Positions 25,402 through 33,400 of a stretch of DNA of 64,000 nucleotides are shown piece after piece. The notes beneath the pieces were generated by a model. The model worked only from the letters and a program-made list of their open reading frames with translations. It made no database searches and was not told the DNA's origin. Origin of the DNA: Nonlabens xylanidelens (GTDB taxonomy: Bacteria; Bacteroidota; Bacteroidia; Flavobacteriales; Flavobacteriaceae); contig NZ_PTJE01000002.1 of assembly GCF_002934445.1 (NCBI RefSeq), forward strand, positions 253,392 through 317,391, written 5' to 3'. The translations under genes and the position numbers were made by a program. Position 1 is the stretch's first letter. Each line of letters begins with the position of its first letter.

Positions 25402-28203
25402 ATGCCAGAAACAAAATTGTTTGCCGATATAGACCAGTTAAGCCCTAAAGAGAATATTCTTATTAAAGGCGCACAACTACACAACTTAAAAGATTTAGAT
25501 GCTGTTATCCCTAGAAATAAACTTGTTGTAATAACCGGTTTATCTGGTAGCGGTAAGTCTTCTCTAGCTTTTGACACGCTATATGCAGAAGGTCAACGTC
25601 GTTATGTAGAAAGTCTTTCTTCTTATGCAAGACAATTTTTAGGTCGTTTAAATAAGCCTAAAGTAGAATATATTAAAGGTATTGCACCTGCCATCGCTAT
25701 TGAGCAAAAGGTAAATTCTACTAACCCTAGATCTACGGTAGGAACTACTACTGAGATTTATGATTATTTAAAATTATTATTTGCTCGTATAGGACGTACC
25801 TACTCACCTATCTCTGGCGACGAGGTGAAAAAAGACACTGTAACAGACGTTGTTAATTATGTAAAACAACAGGACGAAGGTTCTAAATTGCTATTAACTA
25901 CCAGACTTATAGTTAAAGGTAAACGTGATATTGCTGCACAACTGCAGGTACTCTTACAACAAGGTTTTACACGTATAAAAATAAACGACAGCGTCCATAG
26001 AATAGACGAAGAAGATTTGACTTATTCTAAAAAAGACGAAGTAAAAATAGTCATAGACCGTATAATCGTACGAGATAATGAAGATTTCTATAATCGACTA
26101 GCAGACGCTATTGATACTGCTTTCTTTGAAGGAAAAGGAGTTGCCTTTATAGAACACATGGACGGCAGCAAAGTGCGCGAGTTTACTAATAAATTTGAAC
26201 TAGACGGCATAGAATTTCTAGAACCTAATCCGCATTTGTTTAGTTTTAATAATCCTTATGGCGCCTGTCCTAGATGTGAAGGTTATGGAGATGTAATAGG
26301 TATAGATGCAGACCTGGTGATTCCTAACACCGCACTTTCTGTATATGAACAAGCTGTTTTCCCATGGCGTGGTGAGAGTATGTCTTTTTATAATAACCAG
26401 CTTATTATTAGTGCTGGTAAGTTTGACTTCCCTATTCACCGACCATGGTTTGAGCTTACTGAAAAGCAAAAACGACTGGTTTGGGATGGAAATAAATACT
26501 TTGAAGGAATTCATTCCTTTTTTGAAGAACTAGAAGCAAAAGCATACAAGATCCAGAATCGTGTCATGTTATCTCGATACCGTGGTAAAACTAAATGTAG
26601 CAACTGTAATGGCGCTAGATTGAGAAAAGAAGCAGACTATGTAAAAATAGCTGACACTACCATAACAGATCTGGTAACGTTACCTATTAAAGAGTTGGTC
26701 TTATTCTTTAAAGATTTACAATTAAACGATCACGATCAACAAATTGCAAAACGTTTACTTATTGAGATCAATAATAGACTTGCTTTTTTATCTGACGTAG
26801 GGCTAGATTACTTAACCCTTAATCGTAAATCTAATAGTCTTTCTGGTGGAGAATCTCAACGTATCAATCTAGCGACATCTTTGGGTAGTAGTCTGGTAGG
26901 TAGTATGTACATTCTAGATGAGCCTAGTATAGGTTTACATCCACGAGACACAAAACGATTGATTAAAGTACTCAAGAATTTACGTGATTTAGGGAATACG
27001 GTCATCGTCGTGGAGCATGATGAAGAAATCATGCAAGCCGCAGACCAAATTATAGATATAGGTCCAGAGGCTGGTACTCATGGTGGTGAAGTGGTTGCTG
27101 CAGGAACACTGGACGAGATCTTAAAATCTGACAGTCTTACTGCAAAGTATTTGAATGGATCTATGGAGATTCCGCTTCCGCGAAAGCGAAGACCTAACAA
27201 GTATTATATAGATATAAAAGGTGCGAGACAGAATAACCTGCAGAATATAGATGTGCGTTTCCCACTAGGTGTTTTAACTATGGTAACCGGTGTTTCTGGT
27301 AGTGGAAAATCAACTCTGGTAAAACAAATTCTATATCCAGCAATCTTAAAAAAACTAGGTGGTTATGGAAAAAAAGCAGGACAATTTACAGAGATATCTG
27401 GTAAGTTTGAAAATGTAAAAACAGTAGAATTTATAGATCAAAACCCTATAGGTCGCAGCTCTAGATCTAATCCTGTAACCTATATAAAAGCTTATGATGA
27501 CATACGTAATCTATTTGCAAATGAGAAAGTTGCAAAAATAAGAAACTATAAGCCTAAACACTTTTCTTTTAACGTAGATGGCGGTAGATGTGAGACTTGT
27601 AAAGGAGATGGTGAAGTAACTATCGAGATGCAATTCATGGCAGATGTTACTCTCAAATGCGAAACCTGTAATGGAAAACGTTTTAAGAAAGAGATTCTAG
27701 AAGTGAAGTTTTTTGATAAGAATATAGACGATGTTCTCAACTTAACTATTAACGATGCAATAGCGTTTTTTAACACCAATAAAGAAGCTAAAATCACAAG
27801 AAAACTACAACCTTTACAGGACGTAGGATTAGGATATGTAACCTTAGGACAAAGCTCTTCTACCCTATCTGGTGGAGAAGCTCAACGTATTAAGTTAGCT
27901 AGTTTTTTAGTAAAAGGAACCACGTCAGATAAAACGCTTTTCATATTTGACGAGCCTACTACTGGACTTCATTTCCATGATATCAATAAATTATTAGATA
28001 GTTTTAATGCATTAATAGAAAAGGGACACTCTGTAATTGTGATAGAACACAACATGGATCTGGTAAAATGTGCTGACTATGTTATAGACCTAGGTCCAGA
28101 AGGCGGTAAACTAGGTGGTAAATTAGTCGCCGCAGGAACACCTGAAGAAGTGGCTAAGATTAAAGACAGCTATACCTCTCCTTACCTGGCAGAAAAATTA
28201 TAA
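25402..28203 (+). CDS. uvrA: Excinuclease ABC subunit A
   Basis: 933 aa from MPETKLFADIDQ; an in-frame ATG at 25327 lies upstream of the promoter and is rejected. UvrA is the damage-recognition ATPase of nucleotide-excision repair. Seen: Walker A 1 GLSGSGKSS (about 46), zinc-binding CPRCEGYGD and CSNCNGARL, signature LSGGESQRINLATS (about 490), Walker B LDEPSIGLHPRD, Walker A 2 GVSGSGKST (about 632), zinc finger CETCKGDGEV/CETCNGKRF, second signature LSGGEAQRIKLA and FDEPTTGLH. Between the two halves, LPRKRRP is encoded by a palindrome copy with one mismatch. No uvrB is adjacent. Confidence 0.97.
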   Translation: MPETKLFADIDQLSPKENILIKGAQLHNLKDLDAVIPRNKLVVITGLSGSGKSSLAFDTLYAEGQRRYVESLSSYARQFLGRLNKPKVEYIKGIAPAIAIEQKVNSTNPRSTVGTTTEIYDYLKLLFARIGRTYSPISGDEVKKDTVTDVVNYVKQQDEGSKLLLTTRLIVKGKRDIAAQLQVLLQQGFTRIKINDSVHRIDEEDLTYSKKDEVKIVIDRIIVRDNEDFYNRLADAIDTAFFEGKGVAFIEHMDGSKVREFTNKFELDGIEFLEPNPHLFSFNNPYGACPRCEGYGDVIGIDADLVIPNTALSVYEQAVFPWRGESMSFYNNQLIISAGKFDFPIHRPWFELTEKQKRLVWDGNKYFEGIHSFFEELEAKAYKIQNRVMLSRYRGKTKCSNCNGARLRKEADYVKIADTTITDLVTLPIKELVLFFKDLQLNDHDQQIAKRLLIEINNRLAFLSDVGLDYLTLNRKSNSLSGGESQRINLATSLGSSLVGSMYILDEPSIGLHPRDTKRLIKVLKNLRDLGNTVIVVEHDEEIMQAADQIIDIGPEAGTHGGEVVAAGTLDEILKSDSLTAKYLNGSMEIPLPRKRRPNKYYIDIKGARQNNLQNIDVRFPLGVLTMVTGVSGSGKSTLVKQILYPAILKKLGGYGKKAGQFTEISGKFENVKTVEFIDQNPIGRSSRSNPVTYIKAYDDIRNLFANEKVAKIRNYKPKHFSFNVDGGRCETCKGDGEVTIEMQFMADVTLKCETCNGKRFKKEILEVKFFDKNIDDVLNLTINDAIAFFNTNKEAKITRKLQPLQDVGLGYVTLGQSSSTLSGGEAQRIKLASFLVKGTTSDKTLFIFDEPTTGLHFHDINKLLDSFNALIEKGHSVIVIEHNMDLVKCADYVIDLGPEGGKLGGKLVAAGTPEEVAKIKDSYTSPYLAEKL
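27173..27188. repeat. 16-bp palindrome, one mismatch (inside uvrA)
   Basis: CGCTTCCGCGAAAGCG; encodes part of LPRKRR in the linker just before the second ATPase half. Confidence 0.8.
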
Positions 28204-28294: not shown

Positions 28295-29371
28295 ATGAGA
28301 AAACCTAATATAAGATTGCGTCGTAAAGCGACACCTAAGTCTAGAACTAACGTATTCCAGCCACCTGGAACCATTTCTTATGTAGGAGAAGATAGGACTG
28401 GCGAAGTTAGCGCAGAGACTATTCTGTATGATGAGACCCATTTTTCTAAGCAAAATGGTATATTCTTAGATCAATTAAAGGAAAATCGTGTTAATTGGTT
28501 TAATGTAGATGGAGTACATGATATCGCTATATTAGAAAAGATAGGTAGTAAATTTCATTTACACCATTTACTACTAGAAGACATAGCAAACACTACGCAA
28601 CGTCCTAAAACTGAATTTTACGGAAACTATATATATCAATGCATTAAGATGATTTCTTATGATGCAGAGAATCATGAACTTAATGAAGAACAAGTAAGCC
28701 TAATACTAACTGAAGACGCTGTTATTACTTTTCAAGAGAAGACAGGAGATGTATTTGAAAATATTAGAGACCGCATAGAAAACAGTCGTGGTCGCATAAG
28801 ATCTGTTAAAAGCGATTATTTATTCTATGCTCTTATAGACAGTATAATAGATCACTACTTCATAGCTGTTGAACAAATAGGAGAATATCTCGATCAACTA
28901 GAAGACGAAATTTTTGATAACCCTCAAAAAGATTCCCTGAATAAAGCACAAAAGAATAAAAGGATGCTGCTTCAATTGCGTCGTGCTATTTTTCCTTTAA
29001 GAGAATCTATTTCTAGGTTGCTTAAAGAAGACAGCGCCCTGATAGAATCTAAAACACATGCTTATTTTCAAGATGCCTATGATCACTGTATTCAAATTAT
29101 AGAAACCGTAGAATCTTATAGAGAAATAAATGCTGGATTACGTGACATGTACCTATCTAGTGTAAGTCATAAGATGAATCAAATCATGCAGGTACTTACT
29201 ATTATGTCTTCTATATTTATACCACTTACTTTTCTAGCAGGTATTTATGGAATGAATCTACCTGACATGCCAGAAATGGGATGGGAAAATGCTTATAGTT
29301 ATTTCTGGATTGCTTGTGGAGTCATATTCTTCTCATTACTGGGCTTTTTTAAGTGGAAAAAATGGCTTTAG
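28295..29371 (+). CDS. corA: CorA family magnesium/cobalt transporter
   Basis: 358 aa. A long cytoplasmic N-terminal domain (to about 290) with helices such as DYLFYALIDSIIDHYFIAVE, then two C-terminal membrane helices at about 297-317 and 330-350 with the selectivity motif GMN in FLAGIYGMNLPDMPEMGW between them. This matches CorA pentameric channels for Mg2+ (also Co2+/Ni2+). The C-terminal KKWKKWL ends the second helix on the cytoplasmic side. The next gene starts inside its last codons. Confidence 0.94.
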   Translation: MRKPNIRLRRKATPKSRTNVFQPPGTISYVGEDRTGEVSAETILYDETHFSKQNGIFLDQLKENRVNWFNVDGVHDIAILEKIGSKFHLHHLLLEDIANTTQRPKTEFYGNYIYQCIKMISYDAENHELNEEQVSLILTEDAVITFQEKTGDVFENIRDRIENSRGRIRSVKSDYLFYALIDSIIDHYFIAVEQIGEYLDQLEDEIFDNPQKDSLNKAQKNKRMLLQLRRAIFPLRESISRLLKEDSALIESKTHAYFQDAYDHCIQIIETVESYREINAGLRDMYLSSVSHKMNQIMQVLTIMSSIFIPLTFLAGIYGMNLPDMPEMGWENAYSYFWIACGVIFFSLLGFFKWKKWL

Positions 29372-30681
29372 GCTTATCAACATCTGTAAAAATTGTTTTT
29401 GCGGCCTTCATCCTACTCTTAATTTTAAGTTGTGAAAATCAACCACAAGAAATAGAGATTGCTTTAAACGACATTTCTTTAAGCGGTAACACAATTGCAG
29501 TAGGGTTCGATAATGAACCAACTAGAAGTTCCCAAATAATATCGATACAAGACAAAATCTATAAATATGTCGATGCACCTTCTGGTTTAAATTTTAGAGA
29601 TGCGCCTAAGGGGAAATTACTTGGCAAATTTCCTGATAATTATAGATTAGAAATTCTTGAAATGACAGATGTTTCCAGCATTGTTAAAGATGGGAATAAA
29701 GAAATCTCTGGCACATGGGTAAAGGTTACCACTGGTCGTGTAATAGGTTATGTATTTGATGGTTATTTATCAGATAACTATAAAGAGATAGCATATGAAA
29801 ACAACATTAATAATCTCTCTATTCTTACCATGGATAGTTATGAAAAGAAGAATGATGAAACTATTCCATTTATATCCTTGACAGACGGTTATTGGTCTAA
29901 TCGTTTTCCTAAAGTTCTAGAAGAATATCAAAATGAATCGAGCATAAATAATGACGAAAAGCAAAACGAAATCTATTACCATATAAAAGGTGAAGAAAGA
30001 ATTACTTTTTTAAACAATAGAGAGATAGACGAATCAGATTTTTTATTCATTTATAACTATCAAACAGATCAATTAAAACAATTTAAAGTAAAAGATGTAC
30101 CTCTTTTTACTCATGAAAGTATTTATGGTGGTGGTGATTATCTTACCGGTTTTAACCTAGAAGGATTAATAGAAACTAACAACTACTCCTATTATAATTC
30201 TTTTGCACATGTAGACAAAGAAAACCCCTTCCTGACAAATTCATTAAGTAGCATTAATTGGAAAGCTATAAATACAAGCAAAGTGCCTAAAATCGAATTG
30301 GCCTATGGAGAATTTTTTAAATCTACTCAATACGATATAAAAGTAGCCTATCACTATGTAATAGATAACAACGATTACTACTACACACGTAATAGCTTTG
30401 ACAATGGAACTTACACGGCAGACTACATATTTGCATTATCTCCATCTAAACAGGTCTTATACATGACAGAAGTAACTGACAGTGAAAGTCACAGTCCTTC
30501 TCTTTACCTTGAAGAAAACACGGAACTGCCAAAAGAGCCGAATCATTATGCTGGCAGATTATTTAAAGATAAACCACCTGTTATTTTCGGACTTTACTAT
30601 ACTAGTTTTGGTTGTCCATTTATCGCATTTTTAGACGATAAAGAACGTATTATTTATATACAATGTGATAATAGACATTAA
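29353..30681 (+). CDS. Lipoprotein with SH3-like domain
   Basis: 442 aa; an internal ATG three codons later (29362) is an equally good start. The signal region LSTSVKIVFAAFILLLILSC ends in a lipobox Cys at about residue 27. Residues about 70-140 look like a bacterial SH3 domain (LNFRDAPKGKLLGKFPDNY, then GTWVKVTTGRVIGYVFDGYL), usually a peptidoglycan or wall-binding module. The rest (150-442) is a large beta/alpha domain with many Tyr and Asp, not recognised. It overlaps the end of corA by 19 bases but is not functionally linked to it by sequence. Confidence 0.6.
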   Translation: MEKMALGLSTSVKIVFAAFILLLILSCENQPQEIEIALNDISLSGNTIAVGFDNEPTRSSQIISIQDKIYKYVDAPSGLNFRDAPKGKLLGKFPDNYRLEILEMTDVSSIVKDGNKEISGTWVKVTTGRVIGYVFDGYLSDNYKEIAYENNINNLSILTMDSYEKKNDETIPFISLTDGYWSNRFPKVLEEYQNESSINNDEKQNEIYYHIKGEERITFLNNREIDESDFLFIYNYQTDQLKQFKVKDVPLFTHESIYGGGDYLTGFNLEGLIETNNYSYYNSFAHVDKENPFLTNSLSSINWKAINTSKVPKIELAYGEFFKSTQYDIKVAYHYVIDNNDYYYTRNSFDNGTYTADYIFALSPSKQVLYMTEVTDSESHSPSLYLEENTELPKEPNHYAGRLFKDKPPVIFGLYYTSFGCPFIAFLDDKERIIYIQCDNRH

Positions 30682-30757
30682 AGGTTAAAGAAATAAATCA
30701 TTATTGATAATAAAAGACCTCAAATTTTTAGAATATGACAATAAACGTAAAAATATA

Positions 30758-30771
30758 TTATGCGCGCATAA
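30758..30771. repeat. 14-bp perfect palindrome TTATGCGCGCATAA upstream of a sigma-54-type promoter
   Basis: Self-complementary over all 14 bases and only five bases upstream of TGGCAC. It could be an operator, although activators of sigma-54 usually bind further away (about 100 bases). Confidence 0.6.
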
Positions 30772-30776
30772 CACTT

Positions 30777-30792
30777 TGGCACAGGTATTGCT
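30777..30792 (+). promoter_or_regulatory. Sigma-54-type promoter (TGGCAC-N5-TTGCT)
   Basis: TGGCAC at 30777-30782 and TTGCT at 30788-30792: GG and GC are 10 bases apart, the -24/-12 geometry of RpoN promoters. Predicted start of transcription is near 30803. No other intergenic match was seen in the window. Confidence 0.6.
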
Positions 30793-30801
30793 TTATTAGT
30801 T

Positions 30802-30861
30802 ATGAAGGTTAACAAGAGTAATTTTCAAAAAGTTTTTTGGTTGGTTAGTAAGAATTCCTGA
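30802..30861 (+). CDS. Candidate 19-codon micro-ORF
   Basis: ATG at 30802, TGA at 30859-30861, peptide MKVNKSNFQKVFWLVSKNS: basic, with an aromatic centre. It begins at the predicted sigma-54 start site and its stop lies in the terminator stem. It may be translated or may just be the start of a noncoding RNA. Confidence 0.25.
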   Translation: MKVNKSNFQKVFWLVSKNS

Positions 30862-30896
30862 GTTGTCATCTTGATAGCTCGGGATTCTTCATTTTA
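30803..30896 (+). ncRNA. Candidate sigma-54-driven short transcript
   Basis: Bounded by the predicted RpoN start site and the terminator at 30850-30896, the transcript would be about 90-95 nt. It lies between the SH3 lipoprotein gene and the 30968 lipoprotein gene, which has its own -7 box, so no known gene seems to need this promoter. Existence is inferred; no conserved RNA family was recognised. Confidence 0.35.
30850..30896 (+). terminator. Terminator of the intergenic unit
   Basis: AAGAATTCCTGAG pairs with CTCGGGATTCTT (one bulge, one wobble) around a 15-nt loop and is followed by CATTTT. It could also end transcription from the 29353 gene. Confidence 0.6.
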
Positions 30897-30955
30897 TGAC
30901 AATTTGTATTTTATGCCCAAAACAAATCCATACCAATAACCATTTAAATAATAAC

Positions 30956-30963
30956 TACTTTTG
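30956..30963 (+). promoter_or_regulatory. -7 promoter box TACTTTTG for the 30968 gene
   Basis: TAnnTTTG match ending four bases before the ATG. Confidence 0.45.
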
Positions 30964-30967
30964 ATAT

Positions 30968-31546
30968 ATGAAGCAAATAATCACCATAACCTTACTCCTA
31001 TTATTTATAAGCTGTAAAACAGATTCAAAAAAACCTGTCGTAGAAAAATCTGTAAAAACTGAAAAGGTAAAGAAAGAACTTATTTTTCCTAATGACTTTT
31101 TAGGCATTTATAAAGGTAATTTAGTAAACACAACCAGTAATGGATTAGAAGATATTCCCATGGAATTTCATTTACTTGCTACAACTGACAGTTTAAAATA
31201 TGATTATAAAATATTTTACGGTACAGAACGAGAAGAAAGAGCCTACACTCTTATACAAACAGGAAATAAGAATATTTATGAGCTAGACGAGAACAATGGT
31301 ATTATTTTGCCTATAGCACAATCACGCAACACCTTATTTAGTACCTATGAAGTGGCTGGTAATTTAATAAACAACAGCGAGGTGTTTTATGAAGACCGTA
31401 TGGACTTTATGATAACCATGTCTAGTTTAGAAAACAAAGAAGAAACAGGAGAATCTGCTGGTTACAAGGTGAATAGCTATCCTATTTTAGTAATGCAACA
31501 AGCTACGCTTTATAAAGTCGAAGTTGAGTTACATAATGGTAAGTAA
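30968..31546 (+). CDS. Lipoprotein of unknown function
   Basis: 192 aa. Signal at residues 1-16 with lipobox LFISC, followed by a Lys-rich linker (about 20-38). The body (40-190) is a single beta-type domain beginning FPNDFLGIYKGNLVN with a later YEDRMDFMITMS; this 'G.Y.G.L' start is seen in lipocalin-like or DUF-type lipoproteins, but no family is assigned with confidence. Its own -7 box with a four-base gap to the ATG suggests a leaderless message. Confidence 0.55.
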   Translation: MKQIITITLLLLFISCKTDSKKPVVEKSVKTEKVKKELIFPNDFLGIYKGNLVNTTSNGLEDIPMEFHLLATTDSLKYDYKIFYGTEREERAYTLIQTGNKNIYELDENNGIILPIAQSRNTLFSTYEVAGNLINNSEVFYEDRMDFMITMSSLENKEETGESAGYKVNSYPILVMQQATLYKVEVELHNGK

Positions 31547-32023: not shown

Positions 32024-33280
32024 TTATGCAAACGCAGCAGCAACACTAGCACTTAATCTTTTATAAACACCACTATCTAGACGCTCACGTATACCTTCAA
32101 AGGCAGTTAACGTCTCTTCTATGTCTGCCATAGTGTGTGATGCAGTAGGAATTAATCTCAATAAGATTAACCCTTTAGGTATAACTGGATATACAACTAT
32201 AGAACAAAAGACACCAAAGTTTTCACGTAAATCTTTTACTAGAGCCATAGCTTCAGGAATACTACCTTTAAGATAAACTGGTGTTACACACGATTGAGTA
32301 GTACCTATATCAAAACCACGATCTTTAAGTCCACTCTGTAATGCATTTACGTTTTCCCATAGCTTTTCTTTAAGCTCTGGCATAGTACGTAACATATCTA
32401 GACGTTTCAAAGCACCTACTACAAGTTGTGATTGTAACGACTTTGCAAACATTTGAGAACGCAAGTTATATTTTAAGTAATCAATTATTTCTTTATCAGC
32501 TGCAATAAAAGCACCTGTACTAGCAAGAGATTTTGCAAATGTTGCAAAGTACACATCTATTTGATCTTGTACACCTTGCTCTTCACCTGCTCCAGCACCA
32601 GTTTTACCTAGAGTACCAAAACCGTGAGCATCATCTACAAACAGTCTAAAGTTGTACTTTTCTTTAAGAGCTACTATTTCTTTTAATTTTCCTTGCTCTC
32701 CACGCATACCAAAAACACCTTCAGAAATCACAAGAATTCCTCCACCAGTTTGTTCTGCTATTTTAGTAGCACGTTGAAGGTTCTTCTCGATGCTTTCTAA
32801 ATCATTATGCTTATAAGTAAAACGCTTACCATGATGTAAACGTACACCATCAATAATACACGCGTGTGCATCTACATCGTAAACGATAACGTCATCTTTA
32901 GAAACTAAAGCGTCTACAGTAGACACCATTCCTTGATAACCAAAATTCAATAAATAAGCTGCTTCTTTATCTACAAATTCTGCAAGCTCATTTTGTAGTT
33001 GTTCATGAAGATCAGTATGACCACTCATCATACGTGCTCCCATAGGGTAAGCACTTCCATACTCAGCACCAGCCTCTGCATCTACCTTTCTTACCTCTGG
33101 ATGATTTGCTAATCCTAAATAATCGTTAACACTCCAAGTAATTACTTCTCTACCGTTAAATTGCATACGGTTAGAAATAGGTCCTTCTAACTTAGGAAAC
33201 ACAAAATATCCTTCAGCTACACTCGCCCATTTCCCTAGCGGTCCTTTGTCCTTGTATATTTTATCAAATAAATCTTTCAT
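32024..33280 (-). CDS. Alpha-oxoamine synthase family enzyme, probable cysteate-fatty acyltransferase
   Basis: 418 aa from MKDLFDKIYKDKG, placed by a -7 box 17 bases upstream; a longer reading from 33325 overlaps that box. PLP fold type I of the KBL/SPT/AONS family: substrate loop PMGARMMSGHTDLHEQL, stacking His and Asp in FVDDAHGFGTLG (about 213-224), and the PLP Lys in FATFAKSLASTG (about 243-254). Such enzymes condense an acyl thioester with an amino acid. The neighbouring cysteine-synthase-like gene makes cysteate plausible as the amino acid, giving 3-ketocapnine for sulfonolipids, as shown for a Flavobacterium johnsoniae homologue needed for gliding. Serine palmitoyltransferase is the main alternative. 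Confidence 0.75.
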   Translation of the reverse strand: MKDLFDKIYKDKGPLGKWASVAEGYFVFPKLEGPISNRMQFNGREVITWSVNDYLGLANHPEVRKVDAEAGAEYGSAYPMGARMMSGHTDLHEQLQNELAEFVDKEAAYLLNFGYQGMVSTVDALVSKDDVIVYDVDAHACIIDGVRLHHGKRFTYKHNDLESIEKNLQRATKIAEQTGGGILVISEGVFGMRGEQGKLKEIVALKEKYNFRLFVDDAHGFGTLGKTGAGAGEEQGVQDQIDVYFATFAKSLASTGAFIAADKEIIDYLKYNLRSQMFAKSLQSQLVVGALKRLDMLRTMPELKEKLWENVNALQSGLKDRGFDIGTTQSCVTPVYLKGSIPEAMALVKDLRENFGVFCSIVVYPVIPKGLILLRLIPTASHTMADIEETLTAFEGIRERLDSGVYKRLSASVAAAFA

Positions 33281-33297
33281 ATCACTAATTAAGCTCA

Positions 33298-33305
33298 CAA
33301 AGATA
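33298..33305 (-). promoter_or_regulatory. -7 promoter box TATCTTTG for the oxoamine synthase gene
   Basis: TAnnTTTG on the minus strand, 17 bases before the ATG at 33280. It gives this gene its own transcript. Confidence 0.55.
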
Positions 33306-33400
33306 CGACTTTCGCAGCAATTCATCTATAGATTATGCATGCATAGTATTTTGTGATTTGTTAATAATGTGTTGAAGAATATACAGTTAGAAGTGGATCT

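Follow-up and report, generated by a model that had tools for sequence, protein, structure and literature searches.

The gap between two lipoprotein-type genes of Nonlabens xylanidelens is predicted to encode a stand-alone regulatory RNA of ~94 nt, which would be transcribed from a sigma-54 promoter and which contains a segment, UUUUGGUUGGUUAG, that appears to be common to several RNAs of the cell, both other small RNAs and the 3′ ends of sigma-54-dependent mRNAs. We consider it probable that these transcripts form a sigma-54-controlled regulon of base-pairing RNAs with complementary sponge or partner RNAs. In this system, sigma-54 and an activator would respond to stress, such that all of these transcripts would deliver the same seed; in most genera the 3′-end carriers appear to be mRNAs for envelope-type proteins. 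The seed would pair with CUAACCAACC-type sites near the start codons of target mRNAs, and translation would thereby be blocked or altered, while separately promoted RNAs bearing the exact complement (e.g. between a Crp/Fnr-type gene and fumC) would act as sponges or regulated partners. Post-transcriptional control is almost unmapped in the Flavobacteriaceae, a major group of marine bacteria and fish pathogens, and a near-universal RNA family with one sigma factor, one seed and conserved complementary partners would offer a concrete entry point. If the proposal holds, the sigma-54 response would have a non-coding arm extending over its whole regulon, and an RNA–RNA circuit would operate in bacteria where Hfq was not found.

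Each element that an earlier note had named at this locus was confirmed by a sequence check of the window (the whole stretch of DNA analysed, 64,000 nucleotides); the features of this gap and the neighbouring genes described with it lie on its + strand. The gap is bordered upstream by a gene (29353..30681) whose product is a lipoprotein by its signal, which has no Pfam or NCBIfam family and which lies outside the RNA, and downstream by a lipoprotein-like gene (30968..31546) that is conserved as a neighbour within Nonlabens only. The downstream gene is preceded by TACTTTTG, corresponding to the separate TAnnTTTG box that had been proposed for it. Further upstream are uvrA (25402..28203), which is conserved as the upstream neighbour of the RNA in many genera, and a CorA-type transporter gene (28295..29371), which is located between uvrA and the RNA and is conserved in Nonlabens.

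The sigma-54 promoter, TGGCAC-N5-TTGC (30777..30791), consists of TGGCAC at 30777-30782, five intervening bases and TTGC at 30788-30791. The -24/-12 spacing is correct and the pattern occurs once in 64 kb versus 0.05 times expected. By the usual rule, in which transcription begins 12 nt after the C of the -12 element, the RNA would start at ~30803. Among the Nonlabens copies examined, TGGCA[CAT]-N5-TTG was present in 34/46, and homologues in many other genera also have a sigma-54 promoter. It is found in the orthologous gaps of other Nonlabens species, so an objection based on its absence from close relatives does not hold. The genome contains rpoN (RpoN domain, E 6e-52) and encodes two strong sigma-54 activator proteins (PF00158, E 4e-72 and 2e-66).

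The predicted RNA (30803..30896) folds at -26.2 kcal/mol, with a z-score of -4.19 relative to shuffled sequences, and it matches a covariance model of the family (CM R1), which was restricted to the transcript and excluded the promoter, at 65.3 bits (E 2.5e-12). A predicted 5′ hairpin (30803..30827) is followed by the core or seed, TTTTGGTTGGTTAG (30835..30848), which is essentially unpaired in both the minimum free energy and centroid structures, and then by a terminator-like stem-loop (30856..30884) and TTCTTCATTTTA. Only 0.1 such hairpins were expected in shuffles of the region, in agreement with the terminator that had been proposed downstream of the promoter. Across 100 homologues the mean unpaired probability of the core was 0.61, and the 5′ segment was more stable than shuffles (median z -2.4; z < -1 in 87%). 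Covariation, which the earlier note had suggested as a check, was found in the terminator, where 8/10 consensus pairs have changed on both sides with pairing kept. Family members share a layout of a variable 5′ hairpin, an unpaired UUUUGGUUGGUUAG and a terminator hairpin of changing sequence. Judged by its sequence, this would be a short non-coding RNA with its own promoter and intrinsic terminator.

The locus had been described as an orphan, which proved wrong. The same genome carries four exact copies of the core, with a consensus sigma-54 promoter at two of the three stand-alone copies, and when 30690-30960 was compared by blastn with 99 relatives, almost all genomes of the same genus were strongly matched, several of them by tandem copies. 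A GTDB-wide search for the promoter-plus-core pattern identified 68 loci, 67 of which came from records of Bacteroidota, almost all of these carrying a Flavobacteriaceae name (Nonlabens, Aequorivita, Salinimicrobium, Mesonia, Mangrovimonas, Ulvibacter, Galbibacter, Sinomicrobium, Zhouia and others); the sole locus outside Bacteroidota was on a Verrucomicrobiales contig that ends right after the core. Wherever the contig continues, a hairpin and terminator are present, and folding gave the same layout in most cases. Because this pattern demanded the core, the invariance of the core among these loci is by design and is not evidence of conservation; searches with the covariance model and with the exact 14-mer were used instead.

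At E 0.05, CM R1 had matches in 232/249 Flavobacteriaceae genomes, with several in many of them; this count is an upper bound, since ordinary terminators are among the weaker matches where a genome is AT-rich. Of 128 genomes sampled across the phylum, six passed E 1e-5: five were Flavobacteriaceae and one belonged to another family. Matches below ~33 bits in the genome of the window were set aside, being mostly ordinary terminators. Taken together, promoter, hairpins and terminator recur both in the orthologous Nonlabens gap and in homologues across the family, and the terminator covaries, which gives the earlier suggestion of a regulatory RNA good support. No Rfam family was found at its gathering score for the window and 17 relatives, and FopS, BTnc201 and Bacteroides-1, which gave permissive matches far below their cut-offs, were rejected as identities. 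No description of this RNA family was found in the open literature (subscription papers and supplements were outside the reach of the search), and searching papers for the core sequence yielded unrelated papers only, among the matches listed.

Many of the CM R1 matches are not small RNAs; they are the 3′ UTRs of genes for three protein classes: proteins of ~400 aa with a basic Arg/Ser-rich tail, proteins of ~200-220 aa, and lipoprotein-like proteins of ~300 aa. The representatives tested from these classes had no Pfam or NCBIfam family. For 20/22 closed genes with the element in their 3′ UTR, a sigma-54-like site (score of at least 8 of 10, with nearly all of the 20 reaching at least 8.5) was located within ~110 bp of the start codon, and sites of that quality occur by chance in 1.5-2.8% of 110-bp stretches. 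The genome of the window has a member of the Arg/Ser-rich class, in which the sigma-54 promoter is present and the element absent.

The association was also surveyed without reference to promoters. The exact 14-mer occurred 99 times in 60 Flavobacteriaceae genomes versus 16 times for its reversed control, and 60 regions outside Nonlabens, containing 63 sites, were fetched regardless of promoter. A terminator-strength hairpin followed the core at 41/63 sites. By their upstream sequences, 28 of these 41 terminator-linked cores appear to be sigma-54-driven, comprising nine stand-alone elements and 19 3′ UTRs of genes with a sigma-54 promoter; the other 13 are not visibly sigma-54-driven, so the link to sigma-54 is strong without being exclusive. 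The existence of some copies that lack a sigma-54 promoter counts against the reading favoured here.

Several features of the 3′ elements were observed in passing. The terminators behind genes for the Arg/Ser-rich proteins have one unusual loop in common across genera, GCCTCAAAGC (loci L169, L171, L174, L187, L190, L196, L199, L204 and L205). The 3′ UTR of a gene for a 156-aa secreted protein contains a core variant that is one base longer, TTTGGTTTGGTTAG, together with a terminator (L313; L154, at G000:C9:27723-27827); this protein is Spy/CpxP-like by eye and has no Pfam match. Another core-plus-terminator RNA was seen in four genera (L325, L335, L338, L358), with CTGTCCCCAATC upstream and without a sigma-54 promoter.

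The remaining 22/63 survey sites were informative when read on the opposite strand. At nine of the 22, CTAACCAACCAAAA is found directly before a terminator, these being candidate RNAs with the exact complement of the core (CUAACCAACCAAAA). Six of these nine terminator-linked complements lie between fumC and a convergent gene, the visible end of which resembles a Crp/Fnr-type regulator, and they have the appearance of a separate small RNA: they are preceded by a palindrome-type site, TTAACAAATGTTAA or TTAACATTTGTTAA, and in most cases a TATATTTG box is present. This fumC-side candidate RNA with CUAACCAACCAAAA is conserved in six genera (L318, L323, L327, L336, L365 and L368; position 187, complement strand), and duplexes predicted between the window RNA and six terminator-linked complement RNAs had energies of -36 to -53 kcal/mol.

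At five of the last 13 sites the complement is located just before the ATG of a long ORF, versus 4.6% at random positions (0.6 expected). The distance to the ATG is 5-11 nt in four of them; the fifth (L332) is doubtful and could have arisen by chance. Among the genes concerned is one for a VC_2705/ActP-like sodium/solute symporter (L346). Across genera, conserved complements were found joined to terminators and, weakly, at start codons, whereas in the genome of the window complements of the 14-mer with up to two mismatches were not enriched (40 versus 37 for the reversed control), and a one-mismatch complement lies in a hairpin loop at G000:C2:494559. A search for TAACCAACC before an ATG in eight Nonlabens genomes gave no convincing recurring target, the matches being mostly sense or self matches. 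This result and the lack of enrichment in the genome of the window count against the reading favoured here. The genome of the window also has a site where an ECF sigma gene begins (L296), but it did not recur in the near relative G013 and was discarded.

A more tentative proposal, to which we give somewhat less than even credence, is that the Flavobacteriaceae have two mutually complementary small-RNA families, one sigma-54-driven and carrying UUUUGGUUGGUUAG, a seed that many sigma-54 mRNAs also contain at their 3′ ends, the other carrying the exact complement and expressed from a Crp/Fnr-type palindrome beside fumC. Pairing between them would link envelope stress with central metabolism or the redox state without Hfq.

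The main rival to base pairing is that UUUUGGUUGGUUAG is a protein-binding site, in which case the RNAs would titrate or recruit an RNA-binding protein, or the segment would protect the 3′ ends of sigma-54 transcripts. Such a site would suit a segment that is repeated (GGUUGGUU), multicopy and often tandem, that occurs in 3′ UTRs as well as in small RNAs, and that in some members is accompanied by a second copy, GGTTAGTTAG or GGTTGGTTA, upstream. However, conserved exact complements at terminators and start codons would not be expected of a protein site and speak against it, if not decisively, and a Pfam search of this genome turned up neither Hfq nor an RRM protein, a result that also weighs on the reading favoured here, for which it offers no helper protein. 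We therefore regard protein binding as unlikely.

A considerably poorer account treats the element as part of the downstream gene, acting as its leader or attenuator, and not as an independent RNA. Although a same-strand gene does lie within a few hundred bp in Nonlabens and Salinimicrobium, many copies are found directly behind uvrA across genera and the gene that follows them varies in identity and strand, being in many genera on the opposite strand or unrelated; we rejected the leader on this ground. Moreover, the next gene in the window has a separate promoter, located after the terminator, and the same element is found at the 3′ end of other genes, which makes this explanation improbable. 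A repeat that moves or has been amplified, with a promoter and terminator simply carried along, would fit the several copies per genome, some of them tandem, but it is very improbable because only the core has been preserved and the two hairpins have diverged in sequence, the neighbourhood behind uvrA is conserved across genera, and the terminator covaries.

Least credible of all is that the transcript encodes a 19-residue peptide. An ATG (30802) and a 19-codon ORF, MKVNKSNFQKVFWLVSKNS (30802..30861, stop at 30859-30861), are indeed present at the start site as had been described, and the ATG and frame also exist in a few Nonlabens copies, but the small peptide read into them was rejected, since most Nonlabens copies have lost the start or have a shifted frame, in some cases through one-base indels within the conserved block, and no matching ORF was found outside the genus. 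Additionally, with its ATG right where transcription is predicted to start, the ORF would be leaderless. We judge the ORF to be a by-product of the conserved RNA sequence.

The regulon of base-pairing RNAs that we favour can be set beside known systems. The Qrr RNAs of Vibrio are multicopy small RNAs from -24/-12 promoters, and CpxQ of enterobacteria is a 3′ UTR-derived sRNA of an envelope-stress regulon. GlmY of E. coli is a sigma-54-dependent sRNA that acts as a decoy in a two-RNA circuit (PMC6075780), and the SigmaE-dependent RybB and MicA constitute the non-coding arm of an envelope-stress sigma regulon in enterobacteria (PMC1804206). Qrr and GlmY share the -24/-12 type of promoter with the RNA described here and differ from it in host and architecture, and there is no Rfam match at gathering scores. 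RybB, MicA and CpxQ work in the way proposed for it, as a non-coding arm of an alternative sigma or envelope-stress regulon in stand-alone and mRNA-3′-derived forms, but they belong to another sigma factor, are Hfq-dependent and have no sequence relation to it; here, in contrast, one identical seed is common to stand-alone RNAs and many mRNA 3′ ends.

Within the phylum the nearest analogue appears to be the FopS/GibS sRNAs of Bacteroides thetaiotaomicron, which are multicopy paralogues whose conserved seed is unpaired and which end in an intrinsic terminator (Rfam RF04319; PMC11697453). They are mostly intergenic, with one derived from a 3′ UTR, and act close to the start codon to repress mRNAs for outer-membrane proteins; they have a housekeeping (sigma-ABfr) promoter, a bile-salt response, a seed at the 5′ end and an associated protein, RbpB (PMC11697453). 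The likeness thus lies in a multicopy paralogous family from the same phylum with an unpaired seed and intrinsic terminator. In contrast, the promoter here is of the -24/-12 type, the seed is not at the 5′ end, no RRM protein was found, and the window RNA scores 18.3 bits (E 0.68) against RF04319, far from the gathering score of 56. In Flavobacterium psychrophilum, the mapped sigma-54 regulon comprises chaperones, envelope stress, gliding, lipoproteins and one putative regulatory RNA, Rfp36, which has a mapped start site (TSS 840245) and a sigma-54 promoter and clusters by co-expression with genes for the envelope and for gliding (PMC9723704). Rfp36 may be a homologue; the text consulted describes no shared 3′ element or complementary RNA for it (PMC9723704).

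Upstream of the promoter, the palindrome TTATGCGCGCATAA (30758..30771) spans ~-45 to -32 and ends 5 bp 5′ of the -24 element. It is real, as the earlier note had it, stands at a fixed spacing from the promoter and is seen almost only in Nonlabens: TATGC-NN-GCATA occurs at the same 6-bp spacing in most copies of this genus, with a variable centre pair, and in one case outside it (L126). Its centre at ~-38 is unusually near the core promoter for an activator site. The palindrome is likely a genus-specific transcription-factor site.

A second palindrome, TATGCATGCATA, was noticed at 33334-33345, just upstream of a gene for a 433-aa protein (32024-33325), and a palindrome of this type lies ~50 bp upstream of the orthologue in at least three other Nonlabens loci (L054, L084, L098). 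Possibly the same regulator acts on this gene and on the promoter of the RNA. A 16-bp palindrome, CGCTTTCGCGAAAGCG, occurs nine times in the window versus 0.00 expected (positions 351, 7137, 10586, 16288, 33401, 36795, 48130, 50181 and 61677) and is also found in other Nonlabens loci (L003, L005, L210, L301); it is a genus-wide repeat. Finally, some tandem Nonlabens copies of the RNA have no sigma-54 promoter (L032:980-1120, L035, L036, L037, L040) and have (A)GATATTTGTA in common upstream in its place, so the seed may also be made under a second control.
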